Shown here one piece after another: positions 1 to 8,511 of a DNA stretch of 36,347 nucleotides. Each line of letters starts with the position of its first letter. The stretch's first letter is position 1. The DNA is from Bacteriovorax stolpii (GTDB lineage: Bacteria; Bdellovibrionota; Bacteriovoracia; Bacteriovoracales; Bacteriovoracaceae): assembly GCA_945860895.1 (NCBI GenBank), contig CAMASK010000023.1:1-36347 (forward strand), read 5' to 3'. Under the pieces are notes generated by a model. It made no database searches and was not told the DNA's origin. It worked only from the letters and a program-made list of their open reading frames with translations. Position numbers and translations under genes: made by a program.

Positions 1-416
1 GAAATAAGTTTTAAGTTTAGCAGGGGAATACCTCCCCCGATAATGGGTTTATTTGGCTTAAAAATGTAAGGAAATTTATTAAGCATAGAATCATGCGTGT
101 GCTTGTCAGCATAAATTAAAATCGGATCAGGTCTCAGCAATGAAAAAGGTCTAAGCTCATCCATACCATGTGTATGATCAGCATGATCGTGAGTAAGTAT
201 AACGGCATCAATTGAATTAGTTTGAGTGCGAAGTAACTGAGCGCGAAGATCAGGTGATGTATCAATTAAAATATTTTTTTTCTTAGCAGTTTCCAGCAAG
301 ATAGAAGTTCGTAAACGTTTATTCCTGGGATCGTTTGATTGGCAAACCCTGCACTTACAACCTAAAATAGGTACACCTGTACTTGTACCTGAACCTAATA
401 TCGTGATCTTGTTCAT
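1..416 (-). CDS. MBL-fold metallo-hydrolase, PhnP-like (partial, C-terminus off the left edge)
   Basis: The visible 138 residues are the N-terminal part of a metallo-beta-lactamase-fold phosphodiesterase-type hydrolase. The protein opens with ILGSGTSTGVP, followed by a Cys cluster (C20, C22, C25) typical of the PhnP/lipoate-associated branch, then LIDTSPDLR. The metal-binding signature is THDHADHTHGMDEL, near residues 80-93. In this family the His/Asp residues bind two divalent metals and cleave cyclic or linear phosphodiesters; the substrate here cannot be told. The chosen start is the ATG whose complement is at 414-416. No clear ribosome-binding site precedes it, and the divergent peptidase gene starts only 16 bases away, so the promoters of the two genes must overlap the coding sequences. 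Family assignment is firm; function is not. Confidence 0.87.
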   Translation of the reverse strand, partial: MNKITILGSGTSTGVPILGCKCRVCQSNDPRNKRLRTSILLETAKKKNILIDTSPDLRAQLLRTQTNSIDAVILTHDHADHTHGMDELRPFSLLRPDPILIYADKHTHDSMLNKFPYIFKPNKPIIGGGIPLLNLKLI

Positions 417-432
417 CAATGAGGATGTTACT

Positions 433-1779
433 ATGAAATTCTGGTTTGTGCTATTCGCTCTGCTCATGGGCTGTTCTTCAGTGAAGGAAAAGAAAACCCT
501 CTCTGACAATATCAACATTGATGTGAAAGAAATTAAGCTGAAAAACGGTCTGACTGCTTTGCTTGTTCATAATCCAAAACTTCCCATTTTTTCTGTTCAG
601 CTTTTTTATAAAGTTGGTGGCAAAAATGAAGTTCCTGGAATAACTGGTGCTAGTCACTTTTTAGAACATATGATGTTCAAGGGAGCGAAAAAATTTGGCA
701 AGAATACCATGGACTTCATTATTGAAGGAAGTGGCGGATCTACCAATGCTTATACCACGAATGATCAAACGGTTTATTATGAAAATCTTCCGACTGTAGA
801 GCTTGAGCGTATTTTAGATATCGAATCTGACCGCATGGAAAATCTTTTGTTAGACACAGATGATTTCAATAAAGAGCGCCAAGTCGTTTTGGAAGAGCGT
901 AAGATGCGTTACGAAAATTCTCCTAAAGGTCAACTTTACCTGGAGATGATGCAAACTCTTTATAAAGGAACTCCTTATGGCCGCTCTGTTATAGGAGATA
1001 TACCTGATCTGAAATCAGTTAGTCGTGAACAAATTTTTAATTACTTCAAACGTTTCTACGCTCCAAATAATGCCACTTTGGTTTTAGTTGGTGACGTTGA
1101 ACTTTCGAAAGCTGAACAGGTTATCAAAGATAAATTTGGTCGTATTCCTTCTTCGCCTTCTGTTGAAGAGGCCCATAAAGAACTTAAAGAAGCGGACTTC
1201 GTTCCTAAATGGACAACGGATCAGGTTATTGCCCGTAAAGGCGAATCGCCGAATCCAATGTTCATGATGGCATTTCCAACTTATAAAGCGGGTCATCCTA
1301 AAGGCTACGCCCTCGATGTTCTTTCCTCAATCATTGGTTCTGGCAAGTCTGCATCATTAATTAACCAGTACATTCTAATCAACAAGCCTGTGGCCACTTC
1401 TATGTACGCTGCCCACCAATCCCTCGAGAAATCAGGTTTCTTTTTTGTTGGTGGAGAGCTAGTCAGAGGAGTGAAGCTCAATGCATTTCGAAATGATTTA
1501 TTGAAGAACATGAAAAACTACTGCTCTACTGAAGTCACTGCAAGAAATATTCAGAAAATTAAAAACAACTATCTTTCTGATCTCTATAGCGGTCTTGATA
1601 CCAATGCCGGACTAGCTTCATATCTAGGTGAAAGACAACTAGTGTTTGGAGACTGGAGTTTCTATAAAACAGAACTTGATATGTATGAAAAAGTGACAGT
1701 GGATGATGTAAAAGCTGCTTGTCATGAAGTTTTTATGAAGCCAAGTGTTTTTGTATCTGTATGGAATATGCATAAGTAG
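433..1779 (+). CDS. M16 family zinc peptidase, catalytic subunit, predicted lipoprotein
   Basis: This 448-residue protein is an M16B (mitochondrial processing peptidase-like) metalloprotease. The inverted zinc motif HFLEH is at about residues 75-79 and the third ligand lies in LEERKM near residue 155, at the usual distance. The N-terminus MKFWFVLFALLMGC reads as a lipoprotein signal with the modified Cys at residue 14, so it is probably membrane-anchored and faces the periplasm. I chose ATG 433 rather than the in-frame alternative start at 403, because GAGG at 421-424 sits 8 bases before it and the signal peptide starts there. The next gene begins 8 bases after the stop and encodes a non-catalytic M16 partner, so the two probably form a heterodimer. 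Substrate is unknown; periplasmic peptide degradation is a guess from the family. Confidence 0.93.
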   Translation: MKFWFVLFALLMGCSSVKEKKTLSDNINIDVKEIKLKNGLTALLVHNPKLPIFSVQLFYKVGGKNEVPGITGASHFLEHMMFKGAKKFGKNTMDFIIEGSGGSTNAYTTNDQTVYYENLPTVELERILDIESDRMENLLLDTDDFNKERQVVLEERKMRYENSPKGQLYLEMMQTLYKGTPYGRSVIGDIPDLKSVSREQIFNYFKRFYAPNNATLVLVGDVELSKAEQVIKDKFGRIPSSPSVEEAHKELKEADFVPKWTTDQVIARKGESPNPMFMMAFPTYKAGHPKGYALDVLSSIIGSGKSASLINQYILINKPVATSMYAAHQSLEKSGFFFVGGELVRGVKLNAFRNDLLKNMKNYCSTEVTARNIQKIKNNYLSDLYSGLDTNAGLASYLGERQLVFGDWSFYKTELDMYEKVTVDDVKAACHEVFMKPSVFVSVWNMHK

Positions 1780-1787
1780 GAATGAAT

Positions 1788-3143
1788 ATGAAAAATAAAG
1801 TATTAATTGTTTTAATGATGTTAACTCTTTCGGCATTAGTTCGTGCTGAAGGCTTTCTGGATTCTGTCTCCAGAATGAAATGGGGCGAACTCGATGTGGT
1901 ATGGATAGAGGATGATAAATTTCCCCGTTTTACTGCTGCAATCTATTTTCAGGATGGGGCACTTAATGATTCATTCTCCGGATTAACTCAGGGAACTTTT
2001 GAACAGATCACCTCCGGGACATCAACCCAAACCCAAAGAGAAATAGCAGAATTCTTTGATTTCTATGGGGCCAGCATTAAAAGCAATGTGACTCATGAAT
2101 ACAGTGTATTCAGTCTGCAAGGACTTACTAAAGATATTGACCCATTAATGAATAAAGTTTGTAGTCTTTTTACAGATGCCCAGTATCCATCAAATGAACT
2201 TAATTCTTATATTAGCCGTTCAAAAAGCCGGCTTAAAAATCTTGTGACTTCTCATTCTTCACTTGCTGATCGTATTTATCGTCAACTTTCTTTATCGCAA
2301 ACTCCCTATACTGTTCCAGTAGAGGGAACACTTTCTTCTTTTGATAAATTAAAAACACAAAACTTGAAAGATCGTTTGAGTGAACTGAATAAAGTAAAAA
2401 AAGTTCTTTATCTGACAGGTCCAGCCGAAGTAAAAAACCTTAAAGAAATTATCAGCAAAAAATGTAACTGGTCTTCAGAAAATGGTCTTAAAAAACTGAG
2501 CTTGAATAAACCAGCTGCCCAATCTTCTATTTATCTCATCCCTGTTCCTGGTGCGAATCAAGCACAAATTAGAATTGGCCGATATGTTACGACTGATGAG
2601 GTTCAGGGTAAGTATGATAATTTTAATTTCTTAGCGGGCTTTTTAGGCGGCGGATTTACATCTAAACTGGTTCAGGAATTAAGAGTTAAACGTGGATTAA
2701 CTTATTCTGCAAGTGCCTACGTTTCAATGCAGAGAGATTATGGCCGTGCTGGAATCATGACTTTTTCAAAAAATGAATCAGCTTCTGAGGCGATTACAAT
2801 TATTCGGGATGTTTTCAATGAAGTTTCGGTTGGTAAATTCAGTCAGGAAGAATTCAAACACCAACAAGGCCATCAGATTGGAGGCTTCTTATTTGGGTTT
2901 GAACAGACTGAAGCCTTCCTGAATCAGATCATGTTGTACGATCATCAGGAACGTAAATTAGAAGAGCTGGCGAATTACCCTGAACATATTCGTTCGTTAA
3001 CTCAGGAGGCTCTCAAGCAAGCAAATCTTGAAGCATTTCCCTGGGAACTCTTAACGATTGTTGTGGTAGGGGATAAGAGCCTGGAGAAAAGTTTATCTCA
3101 AATTAGACCTGTGAAAATTTTGGACTATAGAGATTTTCTTTAA
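1788..3143 (+). CDS. M16 family peptidase-like protein, non-catalytic partner subunit
   Basis: A 451-residue M16-like protein with an N-terminal signal peptide (MKNKVLIVLMMLTLSALVRA) and no HxxEH zinc motif. It keeps the C-terminal half typical of the non-catalytic subunit: GGGFTSKLVQELRVKRGLTYSA, in which the Arg and Tyr of the 'R/Y pair' help place substrate in the partner's active site (family knowledge). Start 1788 is preferred over ATG 1782 because AGGA at 1778-1781 gives a normal 6-base spacing only for 1788. It follows the catalytic M16 gene directly and ends next to the convergent bactofilin gene, their stop codons abutting. The pair resembles two-gene M16B systems known in other bacteria. 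Confident in family and pairing, not in substrate. Confidence 0.92.
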   Translation: MKNKVLIVLMMLTLSALVRAEGFLDSVSRMKWGELDVVWIEDDKFPRFTAAIYFQDGALNDSFSGLTQGTFEQITSGTSTQTQREIAEFFDFYGASIKSNVTHEYSVFSLQGLTKDIDPLMNKVCSLFTDAQYPSNELNSYISRSKSRLKNLVTSHSSLADRIYRQLSLSQTPYTVPVEGTLSSFDKLKTQNLKDRLSELNKVKKVLYLTGPAEVKNLKEIISKKCNWSSENGLKKLSLNKPAAQSSIYLIPVPGANQAQIRIGRYVTTDEVQGKYDNFNFLAGFLGGGFTSKLVQELRVKRGLTYSASAYVSMQRDYGRAGIMTFSKNESASEAITIIRDVFNEVSVGKFSQEEFKHQQGHQIGGFLFGFEQTEAFLNQIMLYDHQERKLEELANYPEHIRSLTQEALKQANLEAFPWELLTIVVVGDKSLEKSLSQIRPVKILDYRDFL

Positions 3144-3494
3144 TTAATTTTCCTGGGAGTCAGCGGTCATTTCAACGATGGCCCCAGGATAAATAACCAG
3201 TCTGGCAGATTTAATAGTCCCTACCACATTGGCACTTGAACGAACCGAAACTAATCCACTACATTCAATTTCACCTTCTACTTGACCGAAAATTTCGAGA
3301 TCAATCGCTTTAATTTTACCTTTAATAAAACTTCCCCGCTCCAGTATGAGCTTTCCATGATCTCTTACTTCAATACTACCTTCAACAGAAGAAGTTATAA
3401 TGGCATCTCCACTTAGAATAAGATCCCCTATCACTTGAGATTTTACACCAAGGATATTGTAATGAAACTTACGGAAATCCTGATCGTCAATCAT
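3144..3494 (-). CDS. bactofilin (polymer-forming cytoskeletal protein)
   Basis: This 116-residue protein is almost entirely a bactofilin domain: a regular series of short beta-strand turns of the form 'G.I..S..V.I...G.I.G.I.A..LEI.GQVEGEIECSGLVSV', the right-handed beta-helix repeat of the CcmA/BacA family. Bactofilins polymerise without nucleotide at the membrane and commonly localise cell-wall enzymes that set cell curvature or stalks. The short tails fit the family. It is the last gene of a three-gene minus-strand unit; its ATG overlaps the stop of the upstream membrane protein by 4 bases, which indicates translational coupling. With the upstream L,D-transpeptidase-fold enzyme this suggests a role in localised peptidoglycan editing (inference). 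Confidence 0.93.
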   Translation of the reverse strand: MIDDQDFRKFHYNILGVKSQVIGDLILSGDAIITSSVEGSIEVRDHGKLILERGSFIKGKIKAIDLEIFGQVEGEIECSGLVSVRSSANVVGTIKSARLVIYPGAIVEMTADSQEN

Positions 3495-4243
3495 GATTTG
3501 TCTCCTGTCTTAAAGCTTTCTGTCTCTTTAATCAGGAGTAGATCCCCTTCACGCGTAAAGACATAAATAAGAAATTTAATTGATTCGCCAACTGCTCTTT
3601 GTACAAACTCAGCATTAGTTGGACGAAGTCTTGAAACTGAGAACGGTTCTCCCATAGAAAACTTAATCCCGTCATCCAGTGCCATGTTTGCCTCTGAAGG
3701 ATAGGCCATCAGCCCCATTTCAGAAATCATAAAAACCAAAACATGACCTGTGACTTTTGTTTCAGGAACCGTACTTATGATCACAAATTTAAAAGTCGTT
3801 TTATTTTTATTCTGAATTAACTCAAATTGATCGACAGAAATGCGGTTTGCACTCATTAGGTTTTGCATTCCATAGGGACGCTTAATAGCTGATAGGAAAG
3901 CCTCATCTTGGGTTCCACCCGCTGAGGGAGCTTCTTGAGAAGATAATTTATTTTGAAGAGCCACATTACTTTCATTGAGTGTTTTTATTTCTGACTGAAG
4001 AGAGAGAACTTTAGCTTCCTCATCTGTCATTACCTCAGGCAATGAAGGAGAGGGTGCATCTTTTACTTTGCTTCCAAAAGTGATCATTAAGAGCGTAATT
4101 GCAATTGCTCCTAAACAGACCGGCACTACGATAAAAATAGTCCGGATGAATTTTTTAGAAAATCTCAAATATTTTGGCGGCAGAGGAGAATCATAGATAA
4201 CAATTGAAACTTCGCTGCTGGTTTGTTGAATCGATTCTTTCAT
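3491..4243 (-). CDS. single-pass inner-membrane coiled-coil protein, bactofilin partner candidate
   Basis: A 250-residue bitopic protein. Residues 1-32 are cytoplasmic and end in a basic stretch (KYLRFSKKFIR). Residues about 33-56 form one strong transmembrane helix. Residues about 74-104 look like a short coiled coil (LQSEIKTLNESNVALQNKL). The C-terminal ~135 residues form a probable periplasmic beta-rich domain. The layout (TM, coiled coil, and a domain containing FKFVIIS...KVTGHVLVF) is reminiscent of the DUF6776-type proteins that I recall beside bactofilins in other proteobacteria, but I cannot confirm that. Its start is 2 bases after the stop of the L,D-transpeptidase gene, and its end overlaps bactofilin by 4 bases. 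A role linking the cytoplasmic bactofilin to the periplasmic enzyme is inferred from position and topology only. Confidence 0.85.
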   Translation of the reverse strand: MKESIQQTSSEVSIVIYDSPLPPKYLRFSKKFIRTIFIVVPVCLGAIAITLLMITFGSKVKDAPSPSLPEVMTDEEAKVLSLQSEIKTLNESNVALQNKLSSQEAPSAGGTQDEAFLSAIKRPYGMQNLMSANRISVDQFELIQNKNKTTFKFVIISTVPETKVTGHVLVFMISEMGLMAYPSEANMALDDGIKFSMGEPFSVSRLRPTNAEFVQRAVGESIKFLIYVFTREGDLLLIKETESFKTGDKS

Positions 4244-4245
4244 TT

Positions 4246-5220
4246 TTATTCTTTAAAAAATCGCTTAGAGGGTGTGAAGGCAAGATTAGCATGCTCTGCT
4301 TTACTCCACAATTCACCTACAATCTTCCAGTCATAATTAGCATCTTTTTTTAGATAAAGAGTTTTCTTACCAATATCGTTGATAACTGAAGAACGATAAT
4401 CCTGTTGCAGATGGACCACAGCATATTGTTCATTTGACAAGATCGAGATGAAGTCTAATTTTATACTTGGTGCATCCGGTCGTGAGAATATGGTTTTTTT
4501 GTAAGCTTTATACGCATGGTAATTACCTTTAGTGTGGTCATAAAAATTGAGAGGATCATAGGCAGAGATATAGCGTTCAAAATCTTTTGACTGCCAAGCC
4601 TTGGCCCATGCCGAAACAACTTCATTTAAATCTTTGCGATTATTTTCCCAGGTTTCTTTTGAAAGAAAGAAAATATCCTGAACCACAATGATGGGAGTTT
4701 TTTCAAGTTCAATGTATTGCGAAATATCTCTAAGGTCGGCATTTTGTAAAACTACGCAGCCTTTGGAGTCAAGGCCTTTATAAATTCTGTTATCATCATC
4801 AGTTGAGTGAAGCCAAATGCCTCCACCAGTTTTTCCAGAACGGGTATCAATGAAATTAGGGTAGTTCATCGGAAAGGCTCCACTACCATAAATTTCTCCA
4901 TAATTTCCATGACGCTTCAGGAGTTCTTCTTTTGAAAGAAACTCATACATGGAATAAATTCCTTCAGGAGTTTTATGATCCCCATTGATAAATTTGTCGC
5001 CTTTGAATTTTCCCGTTGCAGTGTTGTATGTCTTGACCAGACGAGGATTACTATCAGAGTTTTCGTAGAGGTGAACTTTATGCGTAGCTTTTTCCACCAG
5101 GATCACATGATGAGCAAACTTTTCGTCCATCATCAAAATATTTGATGGAAAAAAATCCTGAGCAAACACTTGTCCGACTAAAATAATCATCCACCAAGCA
5201 AGCATAATACCTTTTTTCAC
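4246..5220 (-). CDS. L,D-transpeptidase-fold (YkuD) enzyme with C-terminal NTF2-like domain; Csd6/Bd1075-type
   Basis: A 324-residue exported enzyme: signal peptide about 1-20 (cleavage after GQVFA), YkuD domain about 37-180, NTF2-like domain about 197-315. The catalytic motif is present, with H138 in IWLHST and S152-K-G-C155 in DSKGCVVL; C155 is the nucleophile. Enzymes with this two-domain layout include Helicobacter Csd6 and Bdellovibrio Bd1075, which act as L,D-carboxypeptidases that trim tetrapeptides and control cell curvature. Carboxypeptidase versus transpeptidase activity cannot be decided from sequence. The start is a GTG with GGGAGG four bases upstream; no better ATG precedes the signal peptide. 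It leads a tight unit with the membrane protein and bactofilin. Confidence 0.92.
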   Translation of the reverse strand: MKKGIMLAWWMIILVGQVFAQDFFPSNILMMDEKFAHHVILVEKATHKVHLYENSDSNPRLVKTYNTATGKFKGDKFINGDHKTPEGIYSMYEFLSKEELLKRHGNYGEIYGSGAFPMNYPNFIDTRSGKTGGGIWLHSTDDDNRIYKGLDSKGCVVLQNADLRDISQYIELEKTPIIVVQDIFFLSKETWENNRKDLNEVVSAWAKAWQSKDFERYISAYDPLNFYDHTKGNYHAYKAYKKTIFSRPDAPSIKLDFISILSNEQYAVVHLQQDYRSSVINDIGKKTLYLKKDANYDWKIVGELWSKAEHANLAFTPSKRFFKE

Positions 5221-5362: not shown

Positions 5363-7177
5363 ATGGCTTACTACATTATTAGCTTTGAATCTGAGATCAT
5401 GATTGAATTTCAGCGAAAGATATCTTTCCTGAATGGTGCTGCATGGATCAAAGAAATAAATGATCTTGCGCCGATCAAAACAACTTCCGCTGTTGCGGCT
5501 CCCTATTTCTTTATCCATTTAACAAAAAAGCACGCTGAGCGAATTGATGAATTCGTCCTGGTTATTCGAGATACTTTCATCACTGCAAAAATAGTATATG
5601 TGACTGAAGAAAAAATGCAGGATATGAAAAACCATCAATCCACTCCCGTTGGGGGTGATGCCTATGTGAATATGCAGATCGAACCTTCCAATTTAAGTGC
5701 CTTGCTCGAAGGTTTAATGCAGCTGGAATTGAATCAGTATGGAAGTTCCGCCCAAAACGAATTAAGCGAATTAGGAGAATCTTATATGAGTGATAAAGAC
5801 CATGAACTTTCAATGGATAACCTCGGAGAATTAGAGGTAAATACTGATGCTCCAGCAGAAATTCTAATCGATGATGGTGGAATGGAATTATCCATCGACG
5901 ATGATATGGGATTGGATCTTTCAGGAGCTAATGATTTAGCTGGGAATCAAATCTTAGAAGAGAGCGGGGAGCTGGATCTCCATGAAAGTTTTTCTCTTGA
6001 TGGTGTTAATGCTGAAGCAGATTTAGGCGGCGATATTGACGAAAGTGATGTGACTTTAAGTCTAGATGCTCCGAATGAGGGAGTCCCTGATCTTGACTTT
6101 AGTGTTTACTCAAATGATGGCCAAGACGATGTTAGTCTGGACCTTAGTAGTGGCGATAGTGATGGCTTGAATTTATCTGATCTTTCAGACGAGGCTTTCT
6201 CCCTTGATTTAAGTGAAGATAGTGAGTCTCCAAGTGTTGATCTGTCTGATGAAGCATTGGAGAAATTAAAAGAAATTGATGCCATTATGGTTCATGATGC
6301 TTCTCAGGTAAGTATTAAAACGGATGAATCAGCATCTTTGGAACTTGATCCGGTCGAAAGCAATGTTGAAACTTCACTGGTTTCTGATGACCTAGATCTG
6401 GGAAGCATCAGCTTTAGTTCTGATGACGAAGAAAAGATAGAAAGGCCCAACAATGCTGCTGCTAGGATTAAAGAAGAGAGAGCGAAGAAAAAAAATAAAG
6501 AAGCTGCCAAAGAATCCTATGACGGAGAAATTGGGAGGGAGCTTAAAGAAATTTCCGGCGCCTATTCTGGTGAGATGGAGCGCATGCAGGCGACTATTTC
6601 TAACCTGAGATCAGACAGAGAAGAGCTTTTGTCAAAAATCCAAAAACAAGATGATGACAAAGTTCTTCAAAATCGACAAATTCTAACGATGCGAGCAGAA
6701 TTGGATGAAAAGAAAATTGAACTCTCAATCATACGAAAAAAATTAAATGATGAGATCTCCGAATTAAGAGACCGCCTTAAGCTTCATGATGAGCGAAAGA
6801 TGATTCTCGAAGAGAAAAACAAAATCTTAATGATAGAACTTGATAAAGCAGCTCAGAAAAATAAAATCGACGTAAAAAAAGTTCAAATGAGGGAAAGAGA
6901 ATTAGAACAAAAATTAGAACTCTTAAAATCAGACTCAGAATCTCAAGTCCGACACAGAGATTTGAAGATCCTCGAACTTAAGCGTAAACTCGATGCAATG
7001 GAGTTTGATGTTGAGTCTATTTCAATGCAAGAGAAACGCTCAGTAGAAAGTCGTTTTGAACTTGAAGATAAACTTGATAAGGCGATCAAGACATTGCGGA
7101 GTGCGATTACCGTTTTAGAGGATGAAAGTGACAAATCTGGCGCTCTTGATGCCCTTAAAAAAAATATTGATATGTAA
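5363..7177 (+). CDS. AglZ/FrzS-like protein: pseudo-receiver domain, acidic linker, long coiled coil
   Basis: A 604-residue cytoplasmic protein in three parts. Residues 1-125 fit a receiver fold (beta strands YYIISF, YFFIHLT, AKIVYVT, AYVNMQI) but lack the phospho-acceptor Asp and conserved Lys, so it is a pseudo-receiver. Residues about 135-345 are an acidic, Ser/Leu/Asp-rich linker with many short repeats (LDLS, SLDLS, VDLSDE). After a basic patch (about 352-372) residues about 378-590 form a long coiled coil. Myxococcus AglZ and FrzS, which organise gliding and pilus polarity, share the pseudo-receiver+coiled-coil plan (known); orthology is not shown. The stop codon overlaps the start of the diguanylate cyclase by one base. 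A clear AAGGA precedes the start. Likely a scaffold or polarity factor. Confidence 0.82.
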   Translation: MAYYIISFESEIMIEFQRKISFLNGAAWIKEINDLAPIKTTSAVAAPYFFIHLTKKHAERIDEFVLVIRDTFITAKIVYVTEEKMQDMKNHQSTPVGGDAYVNMQIEPSNLSALLEGLMQLELNQYGSSAQNELSELGESYMSDKDHELSMDNLGELEVNTDAPAEILIDDGGMELSIDDDMGLDLSGANDLAGNQILEESGELDLHESFSLDGVNAEADLGGDIDESDVTLSLDAPNEGVPDLDFSVYSNDGQDDVSLDLSSGDSDGLNLSDLSDEAFSLDLSEDSESPSVDLSDEALEKLKEIDAIMVHDASQVSIKTDESASLELDPVESNVETSLVSDDLDLGSISFSSDDEEKIERPNNAAARIKEERAKKKNKEAAKESYDGEIGRELKEISGAYSGEMERMQATISNLRSDREELLSKIQKQDDDKVLQNRQILTMRAELDEKKIELSIIRKKLNDEISELRDRLKLHDERKMILEEKNKILMIELDKAAQKNKIDVKKVQMRERELEQKLELLKSDSESQVRHRDLKILELKRKLDAMEFDVESISMQEKRSVESRFELEDKLDKAIKTLRSAITVLEDESDKSGALDALKKNIDM

Positions 7178-8511
7178 TGATTAACAAAAAAGATCATTTA
7201 GCCATTCTGGCCATTGCCATTGATTCCTTCTCGATTGAAGTGATAAAAAAAGCTTTGAAAGAGAATGGTTTAAATTTTCGCATCAGTTTTTTGCATGATA
7301 TAGAAGAAATTGAGAGCTATAAAAAGACAGTCGATGCGGTTTTCTTTTTCTCAAATCGTCAGGGCCAGAAAACCCTTAAGTATATTAGAAAGATAAATCT
7401 AAAATTTCCTGGTGCAGCTATTATTCTCTTATCCACCCGTATTGATTATCAGGGTATTGTTGGCGGATTCAGAGCAGGGCTATTTGATTTCCTTCCCCTT
7501 CCCATTGATCAGAATGAGATTCGAACAATTATCTATCGACTACAACTCCATGAAGTGATTCAAAGTGGAGGCTGGAATCCAGAACGTGCAGTATTGCACC
7601 TCTTTTCCAAACCTGAAAATTTTTCAGCCATTGAAGAGATCTCTTCTAATTTAAAGCAATATTTAAATCTCTTTTTTAAGATTGAATCTGTGATTTCATA
7701 TTCAACTGAAAAAGAAATGCTGGATGATGTAAAAGAAACATTTAAATTAAACGAACAGCAATTAGAGCGCATAAATATTTTCTTGAAAGATCCATCAGGC
7801 ATTGTTTTCGGATTACGATTTAGCAATGAAACTTTTCATTTTTTAATTAAAAATGATGAAAGTAAATATTCATATTTTGTGGCGAAGAATAATTCGGATT
7901 TTTTAATTCATGATATTTTAAGTGACTATCTTTCGAATGTATTAAAAACGTCACTTTCCATACTTGCAGAATCAAAGCGTAGGGATGAAATCCGAAATTT
8001 ATCTTTAACCGATGAAGTCACAGGACTTTATAATCAAAGAAAATTGGTGGAAGACCTGGCGTTTTATATTTCACGCTATCCTCTGGATAAACAGGTGTTC
8101 AGCCTTTTGTTTATTGATATTGATTATTTTAAAAATGTGAATGACCAGTTCGGTCACGTGGTAGGAAGCCAACTCTTGATTGATATAGCCGTTATTCTAA
8201 AAACTCAGCTAAGATCAAATGATCTGGTTTACCGATATGGAGGAGATGAGTTCATCATTCTTCTTCCCCATGCCAATCTAGCGGAATCAAAAAAAATAGC
8301 GCTACGAATTTCAGATTCCATTAAAGATGCTGAATTTAGCATCGGAATTAATCACAAATATAAATTGTCTCTTTCTATTGGTATTGCAGAGTTTCCGAAT
8401 GATGCTGATAGCGCGAAATCTATTATCGAGTTTGCCGATAAGATGATGTACATGTCAAAGAAATCAGGTCGAGGAAAAGTCTTTCATGTCACTGAAGTTG
8501 TTTTGTCCTGA
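7177..8511 (+). CDS. GGDEF diguanylate cyclase with N-terminal pseudo-receiver
   Basis: A 444-residue diguanylate cyclase. The C-terminal domain (about 275-440) has an intact active site RYGGDEF (GGDEF at 355-359), a preceding DIDYFKNVND metal/substrate segment, and a product-inhibition I-site RSND at 346-349, exactly five residues before GGDEF. It should therefore make c-di-GMP from two GTP and be feedback-inhibited. Residues 6-125 have a receiver-like pattern, but the phospho-acceptor position in DAVFFFSN is not Asp and the usual Lys-Pro is LP (DFLPLPID), so it is probably not phosphorylated. The middle (about 135-265) may be GAF-like. Start ATG overlaps the preceding TAA by one base (TAATG), so expression is coupled to the AglZ-like scaffold. 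Confidence 0.93.
   Translation: MINKKDHLAILAIAIDSFSIEVIKKALKENGLNFRISFLHDIEEIESYKKTVDAVFFFSNRQGQKTLKYIRKINLKFPGAAIILLSTRIDYQGIVGGFRAGLFDFLPLPIDQNEIRTIIYRLQLHEVIQSGGWNPERAVLHLFSKPENFSAIEEISSNLKQYLNLFFKIESVISYSTEKEMLDDVKETFKLNEQQLERINIFLKDPSGIVFGLRFSNETFHFLIKNDESKYSYFVAKNNSDFLIHDILSDYLSNVLKTSLSILAESKRRDEIRNLSLTDEVTGLYNQRKLVEDLAFYISRYPLDKQVFSLLFIDIDYFKNVNDQFGHVVGSQLLIDIAVILKTQLRSNDLVYRYGGDEFIILLPHANLAESKKIALRISDSIKDAEFSIGINHKYKLSLSIGIAEFPNDADSAKSIIEFADKMMYMSKKSGRGKVFHVTEVVLS

Follow-up and report, generated by a model that had tools for sequence, protein, structure and literature searches.

A conserved gene unit of a YkuD+NTF2 enzyme, a membrane protein and a bactofilin in the Bacteriovoracaceae that may form a split LmdC-like module

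Bactofilins take part in morphogenesis, chromosome organization and motility, according to excerpts of the literature on these proteins (PMC12448750). A described link between a bactofilin and a cell wall enzyme is LmdC, which, in the excerpts of the report cited here (PMC10945521), comprises a conserved cytoplasmic beta-hairpin, a transmembrane segment, a coiled coil and an M23 domain. The hairpin binds bactofilin and this binding governs the localisation of LmdC; the exchange of three hairpin residues abolished its enrichment at the inner curve. For Bd1075, excerpts of the corresponding report (PMC8938487) describe LD-carboxypeptidase activity and targeting to the convex face by the NTF2 end, and state that the protein makes curvature and needs correct targeting to do so, the targeting mechanism itself being given as not known in these excerpts. 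In Helicobacter, Csd5 is reported not to bind Csd6, as far as the excerpted text goes (PMC9507126).

We analysed a stretch of 36,347 nucleotides from Bacteriovorax stolpii, hereafter the window, which contains three genes on the minus strand in the order LDT, MID, BAC (ORFs 5220-4246, 4243-3491 and 3494-3144). LDT (4246..5220) starts with GTG and encodes a Csd6/Bd1075-type YkuD+NTF2 enzyme of 324 aa; MID (3491..4243) encodes a bitopic linker of 250 aa; BAC (3144..3494) encodes a bactofilin of 116 aa with PF04519 at residues 14-108 (E 2.2e-17). The ORF coordinates bear out the spacing given in the original prediction, a gap of 2 bases between LDT and MID followed by an overlap of 4 bases between MID and BAC, and domain searches together with the one hydrophobic stretch in MID agree with the three parts it had named. 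The unit has syntenic flanks, a convergent M16 peptidase pair (403..3143, plus strand) and a divergent pair encoding a coiled-coil-like protein of 604 aa and a GGDEF protein (5363..8511, plus strand). A scan for promoters and terminators returned sites no more numerous than in shuffled sequences.

LDT carries a YkuD catalytic domain (PF03734, E 3.9e-16; residues 38-179, 4684..5109, minus strand) followed by an NTF2-like Cds6_C domain (PF24125, E 5.4e-19; residues 199-303, 4312..4626, minus strand), both above the Pfam cut-off and in the order typical of the Csd6/Bd1075 LD-carboxypeptidases. The NTF2 domain, on which the original prediction had made itself dependent, is therefore present. Among the PDB relatives 7o21, 4xzz, 6xj6 and 6xj7, the best is Bd1075 (7o21, E 3e-48), followed by Csd6 and Pgp2. 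Residues H138-S139, C155 and V157 of LDT correspond to H141-A142, C156 and V158 of Bd1075, and H138, C155 and V157 are invariant in all 21 rows of alignment A2, which provides the catalytic His and Cys together with a pocket residue other than Arg. Directly after the NTF2 domain, W305 aligns with W303 of Bd1075, the Trp used in targeting, which is nearly invariant among the LDT relatives aligned. Judged by eye, the hydrophobic N-terminus, which ends in GQVFAQ, resembles a signal peptide. From these sequence features we infer that LDT converts tetrapeptides to tripeptides.

In addition, LDT ends in the tail AFTPSKRFF (residues 314-322, 4255..4281, minus strand; motif comparison). An AFxPSxRFF-like tail is present in 58 of 60 distinct LDT ends of the own family (the exceptions are G204 and G200) and in 2 of 36 distinct ends of other families, L102 and L148, both of family f8 (family and genus labels such as f1 or g36 are those of the analysis tool). 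The tail may be a candidate docking peptide or merely mark a lineage. The LDTs of L102 and L148 nest within the own-family clade in a tree of 137 YkuD columns, and their presence in f8 possibly reflects horizontal transfer. As a separate observation, the two f8 genomes concerned (G124 with L102 and L167, G130 with L148) hold this tailed, own-family-type LDT plus a second Cds6_C gene elsewhere, and in G124 the own-family-type LDT has no MID or bactofilin adjoining it.

No Pfam family matches MID at an E value below 0.22, and the protein belongs to no NCBIfam family. The single-pass linker proposed earlier is supported by its one hydrophobic stretch and by a predicted transmembrane helix. An AlphaFold2 model (mean pLDDT 84) contains strands at residues 11-16 and 24-29, helices at 30-61 and 74-101, and eight strands between residues 135 and 240. 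The model thus predicts an N-terminal beta-hairpin (residues 11-29, 4157..4213, minus strand), which by analogy to LmdC would be the part that binds bactofilin, a transmembrane helix region also backed by the hydrophobic stretch (residues 30-61, 4061..4156, minus strand), a coiled-coil-like helix (residues 74-101, 3941..4024, minus strand) and a putative periplasmic Ig/FN3-like beta-sandwich (about residues 133-240, 3524..3847, minus strand; model and Foldseek). The same order of elements was predicted for a diverged MID of family f16 that is 14% identical to the window protein, from an alignment that contained other MIDs. Among the Foldseek matches listed, none for the model of the window MID reaches E 0.001, and 31 for the f16 model do, with low whole-chain TM-scores; the 50 matches listed are mostly beta-sandwich domains, FNIII-like domains of glycosidases among them. 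A Pfam scan of MID found neither an M23 peptidase nor an SH3 family, and no M23 family is among the 25 of 61 families listed for 31 A1 members. The idea that MID is itself an enzyme was dropped, as it has no family match and Foldseek points to beta-sandwiches, and so was a relationship to DUF6776, which is absent from the Pfam matches listed (25 of 61 families for A1). MID constitutes a protein family without a Pfam entry that the gene unit has brought to light.

The PDB bactofilins 6ria and 2n3d are matched by a BAC profile, and none is matched by the single BAC sequence. BAC is one of two bactofilins in the genome. The second lies after a gene with a ParB-like start and before a gene resembling that of an ATP synthase subunit (names assigned by eye). 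In B. bacteriovorus, bd3904, which encodes a bactofilin, shares a transcript with parB, according to excerpts of the report (PMC7186360).

To what extent the unit is conserved was followed in 191 genomes of the phylum, 58 of them from the own family, in which MID was hit in 99 genomes (98 without G207, excluded because its match at 7.6e-4 covers the coiled coil only), Cds6_C in 149 and bactofilin in 182; gene places and bactofilin counts for the linkage tally were transcribed by hand from the search outputs, and LDT places are known for 148 of the 149 genomes, G188 having a Cds6_C match without a listed place. MID and LDT are both present in 54 of the 58 own-family genomes and linked in 53; G115 makes up the difference, its MID lying at a contig start and its LDT close to the beginning of a different contig. 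The four own-family genomes without either gene are G198 (88% complete) and three genomes of genus g36. In a set of 58 genomes that included the own genome, a search with the single MID sequence matched 34. All ten genomes listed from other genera of the family were hit; no match came from two genomes of the same genus, 76% and 81% complete. A contig scan with one sequence as query returned one relative. Wherever the contig is long enough, the own-family loci read keep the order LDT-MID-BAC, usually between the convergent M16 pair and the divergent coiled-coil/GGDEF pair. The three-gene unit is thus real and conserved, and the neighbourhood on which the original prediction had staked its case is found, with linkage in 53 of 58 own-family genomes. 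However, because the flanking genes are syntenic as well, this linkage is partly inherited gene order. Two side observations may be added: the acidic coiled-coil-like protein and the GGDEF protein (5363-8511) stand beside the unit in most of the own-family loci read, and one MID match (G121:C183:2177-2887) contains one in-frame TAG.

In all three g36 genomes (G092, G118 and G162; 99, 98 and 94% complete), LDT, MID and BAC are absent between flanks that remain: the M16 pair on one side and, matched at E about 1e-12 to 1e-13, the coiled-coil gene on the other. The flanking genes stand about 120 bases apart in G092 and about 90 in G118, and an unrelated ORF takes the place of the triad in G162; none of these stretches gave a hit for the GGDEF gene. 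Genome-wide, the g36 genomes have no MID, Cds6_C or bactofilin match. A general loss of shape genes is disfavoured, as g36 keeps MreB, and we count the joint absence as one event. Independently of g36, MreB is present and a bactofilin match absent in six other sampled genomes (G038, G046, G067, G039, G112 and G143).

Across the phylum, the picture differs from that in the own family. We compared 68 distinct MID loci, 51 of the own family and 17 of others. A bactofilin gene lies directly downstream of MID in 67 of them (-98 to +15 bases), the sole exception, L026, ending at the contig end. LDT lies directly upstream in 50 (-4 to +85 bases), which is 50 of the 51 own-family loci. Since bactofilin follows MID in 67 of 68 loci and LDT precedes it in 50, the arrangement is not due to chance. 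The 18 MID loci without LDT are the own-family L021, at a contig start, and the 17 of other families, in every one of which MID is followed by bactofilin and LDT is not adjacent. An absence of LDT from these other families proved wrong for most, because the gene lies elsewhere in the genome: 44 sampled genomes outside the own family have MID, and 40 of them also have a Cds6_C match, with no match in G091, G123, G127 and G144. Hence the enzyme-linker-bactofilin neighbourhood originally proposed stands in the own family, whereas the phylum-wide pair is MID and bactofilin.

The pairing extends to diverged sequences. At least two bactofilins occur in 95 of the 98 MID genomes. Conversely, 20 genomes have at least two bactofilins and no A1 match. 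Eight of these were read (G041, G055, G037, G052, G085, G044, G051 and G161), the other twelve being ten f3 genomes, G153 and G179, and in each of the eight the second bactofilin is immediately preceded by an ORF with a single hydrophobic stretch. A wider MID profile, searched against 4979 ORFs, matched at E 1e-8 to 6e-4 in f7, f16, f2 and one f3 genome and at 0.28 in the other f3 genome, the best unrelated ORF scoring 0.0076; in f2, f3, f7 and f16 the diverged MIDs occupy the same position before bactofilin. Of the MID matches better than 0.0076, 139 of 140 lie beside a bactofilin, the remaining one being L026 at its contig end, in a set that includes duplicates and is not a random sample, because its loci had been chosen for a match to MID, LDT or bactofilin or for adjoining one. 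A single bactofilin is found in 31 of 33 f6 and 19 of 19 f11 genomes, and LDT without MID in 31 of 33 and 14 of 19, respectively.

LDT adjoins MID in the own family only and, in reduced form, in f2, represented by G044 and G051 (genomes of 1.6 and 1.3 Mb, each 88% complete). Here the order is enzyme, a MID of 76 aa, and bactofilin. The short MID matches the hairpin and transmembrane part of the profile only, without the periplasmic domain, and the G044 enzyme (209 aa) has YkuD and no Cds6_C match. In G051 (L222 2837-4062) the enzyme frame is broken in the assembly, through either assembly error or decay, and the MID and bactofilin frames are open. The f2 enzyme falls outside the own-family LDT group (137-column YkuD tree, long branches). 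The joint absence of both periplasmic parts would fit a contact between the NTF2 domain and the MID sandwich, in one case.

Near-universal linkage in the own family and joint absence from one genus suggest that the set probably directs wall trimming to a single place in order to shape the cell, and a functional tie among LDT, MID and BAC is likely. We lean, with some confidence, towards a split, LmdC-like morphogenetic module: MID would tether a separate LD-carboxypeptidase to bactofilin. Beneath the inner membrane, bactofilin filaments would bind the cytoplasmic beta-hairpin of MID; MID would span the membrane and, with its coiled coil and Ig/FN3-like domain, dock the separately secreted LDT, probably by the NTF2 domain and/or the AFxPSxRFF tail; the docked enzyme would trim tetrapeptides to tripeptides locally and thereby generate curvature. 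This reading draws on the own-family linkage, the g36 absence, the MID-bactofilin pairing, the LmdC hairpin data, the f2 order and the conserved residues. It is weakened by the unlinked LDT outside the family and the many LDT genomes without MID, Bdellovibrio included; moreover, the joint absence in g36 and the reduced form in f2 each amount to a single case, and all bactofilins, as well as a hit to the GGDEF neighbour, are missing from g36. That MID is the founding member of a widespread family of non-catalytic adaptors by which bactofilin positions a wall enzyme in trans, the own family (and perhaps separately f2) having taken an LD-carboxypeptidase as cargo via NTF2 domain and tail, has in our estimate an even chance; if true, it would supply a physical mechanism for one-sided wall trimming.

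Alternatively, MID and bactofilin could be the working unit, a membrane scaffold, with LDT a co-regulated neighbour that acts in a parallel wall-trimming pathway, like Csd6 or Pgp2. The wide distribution of the pair speaks for this, as do the separate locations of MID and Cds6_C in each of the 39 genomes of other families that have both at listed places (G188 being without one) and the excerpted reports that set Csd6 and Pgp2 apart from bactofilin (PMC9507126, PMC10151779); moreover, since an M16 pair is found near LDT in Bdellovibrio as well, the enzyme gene may be a neighbour of long standing. However, all three genes are jointly missing in g36, LDT and MID stand close together in 50 of 51 own-family loci, and the f2 enzyme also adjoins MID although it falls outside the own-family group, and we regard this alternative as rather unlikely. 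Less probable still is a role in division, outgrowth or invasion instead of curvature, which could coexist with the split module, so that the likelihoods given here do not sum to one: bactofilins have several roles (PMC12448750, in excerpts) and the sampled organisms are known here from genomes and not from cell shape, but Bd1075, the nearest enzyme to have been studied, generates curvature (PMC8938487, in excerpts). Finally, it is improbable that MID regulates LDT activity, as activator or inhibitor, and not its place, with bactofilin merely stabilising MID: a catalysis-free bitopic partner could do either and no sequence feature separates the two, but in the excerpted reports bactofilin binding governs LmdC localisation (PMC10945521) and Bd1075 curvature requires correct targeting (PMC8938487).

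Returning to the split module and the known systems, the closest enzyme is Bd1075 of Bdellovibrio bacteriovorus (7O21), which shares with LDT the YkuD+NTF2 architecture, the pocket Val, the Trp at the NTF2 end and a short N-terminus with no apparent dimerisation domain. It differs in that bd1075 is described as monocistronic in the excerpted report (PMC8938487) and in having no AFxPSxRFF tail. In one Bdellovibrio genome of the sample (G094), LDT departs from the sequence of the Bd1075 structure at 4 of 324 positions (counted from the alignment) and adjoins a FliL-family gene and an M16 pair; this genome has no MID match and one bactofilin. The Bdellovibrio parallel thus holds for the enzyme and not for the linker, and localisation in G094 would be independent of MID. 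In one genome each of f6, f11, f21 and f22 (L224-L227), LDT is divergent from a FliL-like gene followed by an M16 pair, the FliL-like identity having been Pfam-tested in f6; in other families FliL-like, M16, AlaDH-like (name by eye) and MID-BAC genes recur nearby in varying orders. An old LDT-M16 neighbourhood may be behind part of the linkage.

Csd6 and Pgp2 of Helicobacter and Campylobacter share YkuD+NTF2 with LDT and are LD-carboxypeptidases needed for helical shape. In contrast to the coupling proposed here, Csd6 is reported not to interact with bactofilin and its partners (PMC9507126), and C. jejuni pgp2 acts in a different pathway from bactofilin (PMC10151779), both according to excerpts. 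The Helicobacter CcmA-Csd6 analogy of the original prediction is therefore loose, and LmdC-bactofilin (PMC10945521, in excerpts) is the nearer model. Because enzyme and bactofilin are reported apart in these organisms, an LDT-MID-BAC coupling looks new; among the open-licence papers listed in searches on bactofilins, LD-carboxypeptidases, Bd1075 and Bacteriovoracaceae, no title or abstract opening described the three-gene unit. Csd5 resembles MID as a non-enzymatic transmembrane protein and binds the bactofilin CcmA through its cytoplasmic end; unlike MID, it contacts peptidoglycan through a periplasmic SH3 domain, and MurF is a further binding partner (PMC9507126, in excerpts).

Among the known systems, LmdC-BacA of Hyphomonas neptunium and Rhodospirillum rubrum (PMC10945521, in excerpts) ties a wall enzyme to a bactofilin, as the unit would, and its lmdC gene overlaps the bactofilin gene, as MID does. 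Predicted structure and gene order place in MID the hairpin, transmembrane helix, coiled coil and bactofilin adjacency of an LmdC-type partner, and no M23 domain; the likeness in bitopic layout comes from the predicted structure and not from sequence alignment. Plasmid records, which yielded one bactofilin-M23 pair (Leptospira), an unannotated Halomonas stretch and a Hydrogenophaga plasmid, were dropped as a yardstick for LmdC, offering too little for a hairpin comparison. LmdC has its own M23 endopeptidase. In the unit, an Ig/FN3-like domain is predicted for MID, and the enzymatic part is encoded separately as a YkuD protein; having the same predicted layout minus the peptidase, MID looks like an LmdC whose peptidase has been replaced. 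With the genes for a cytoplasmic filament, a membrane adaptor and a periplasmic enzyme side by side, and jointly missing from one genus, the unit offers a concrete, testable answer in a related family, and would join the bactofilin and LD-carboxypeptidase shape pathways that are reported apart in model organisms.
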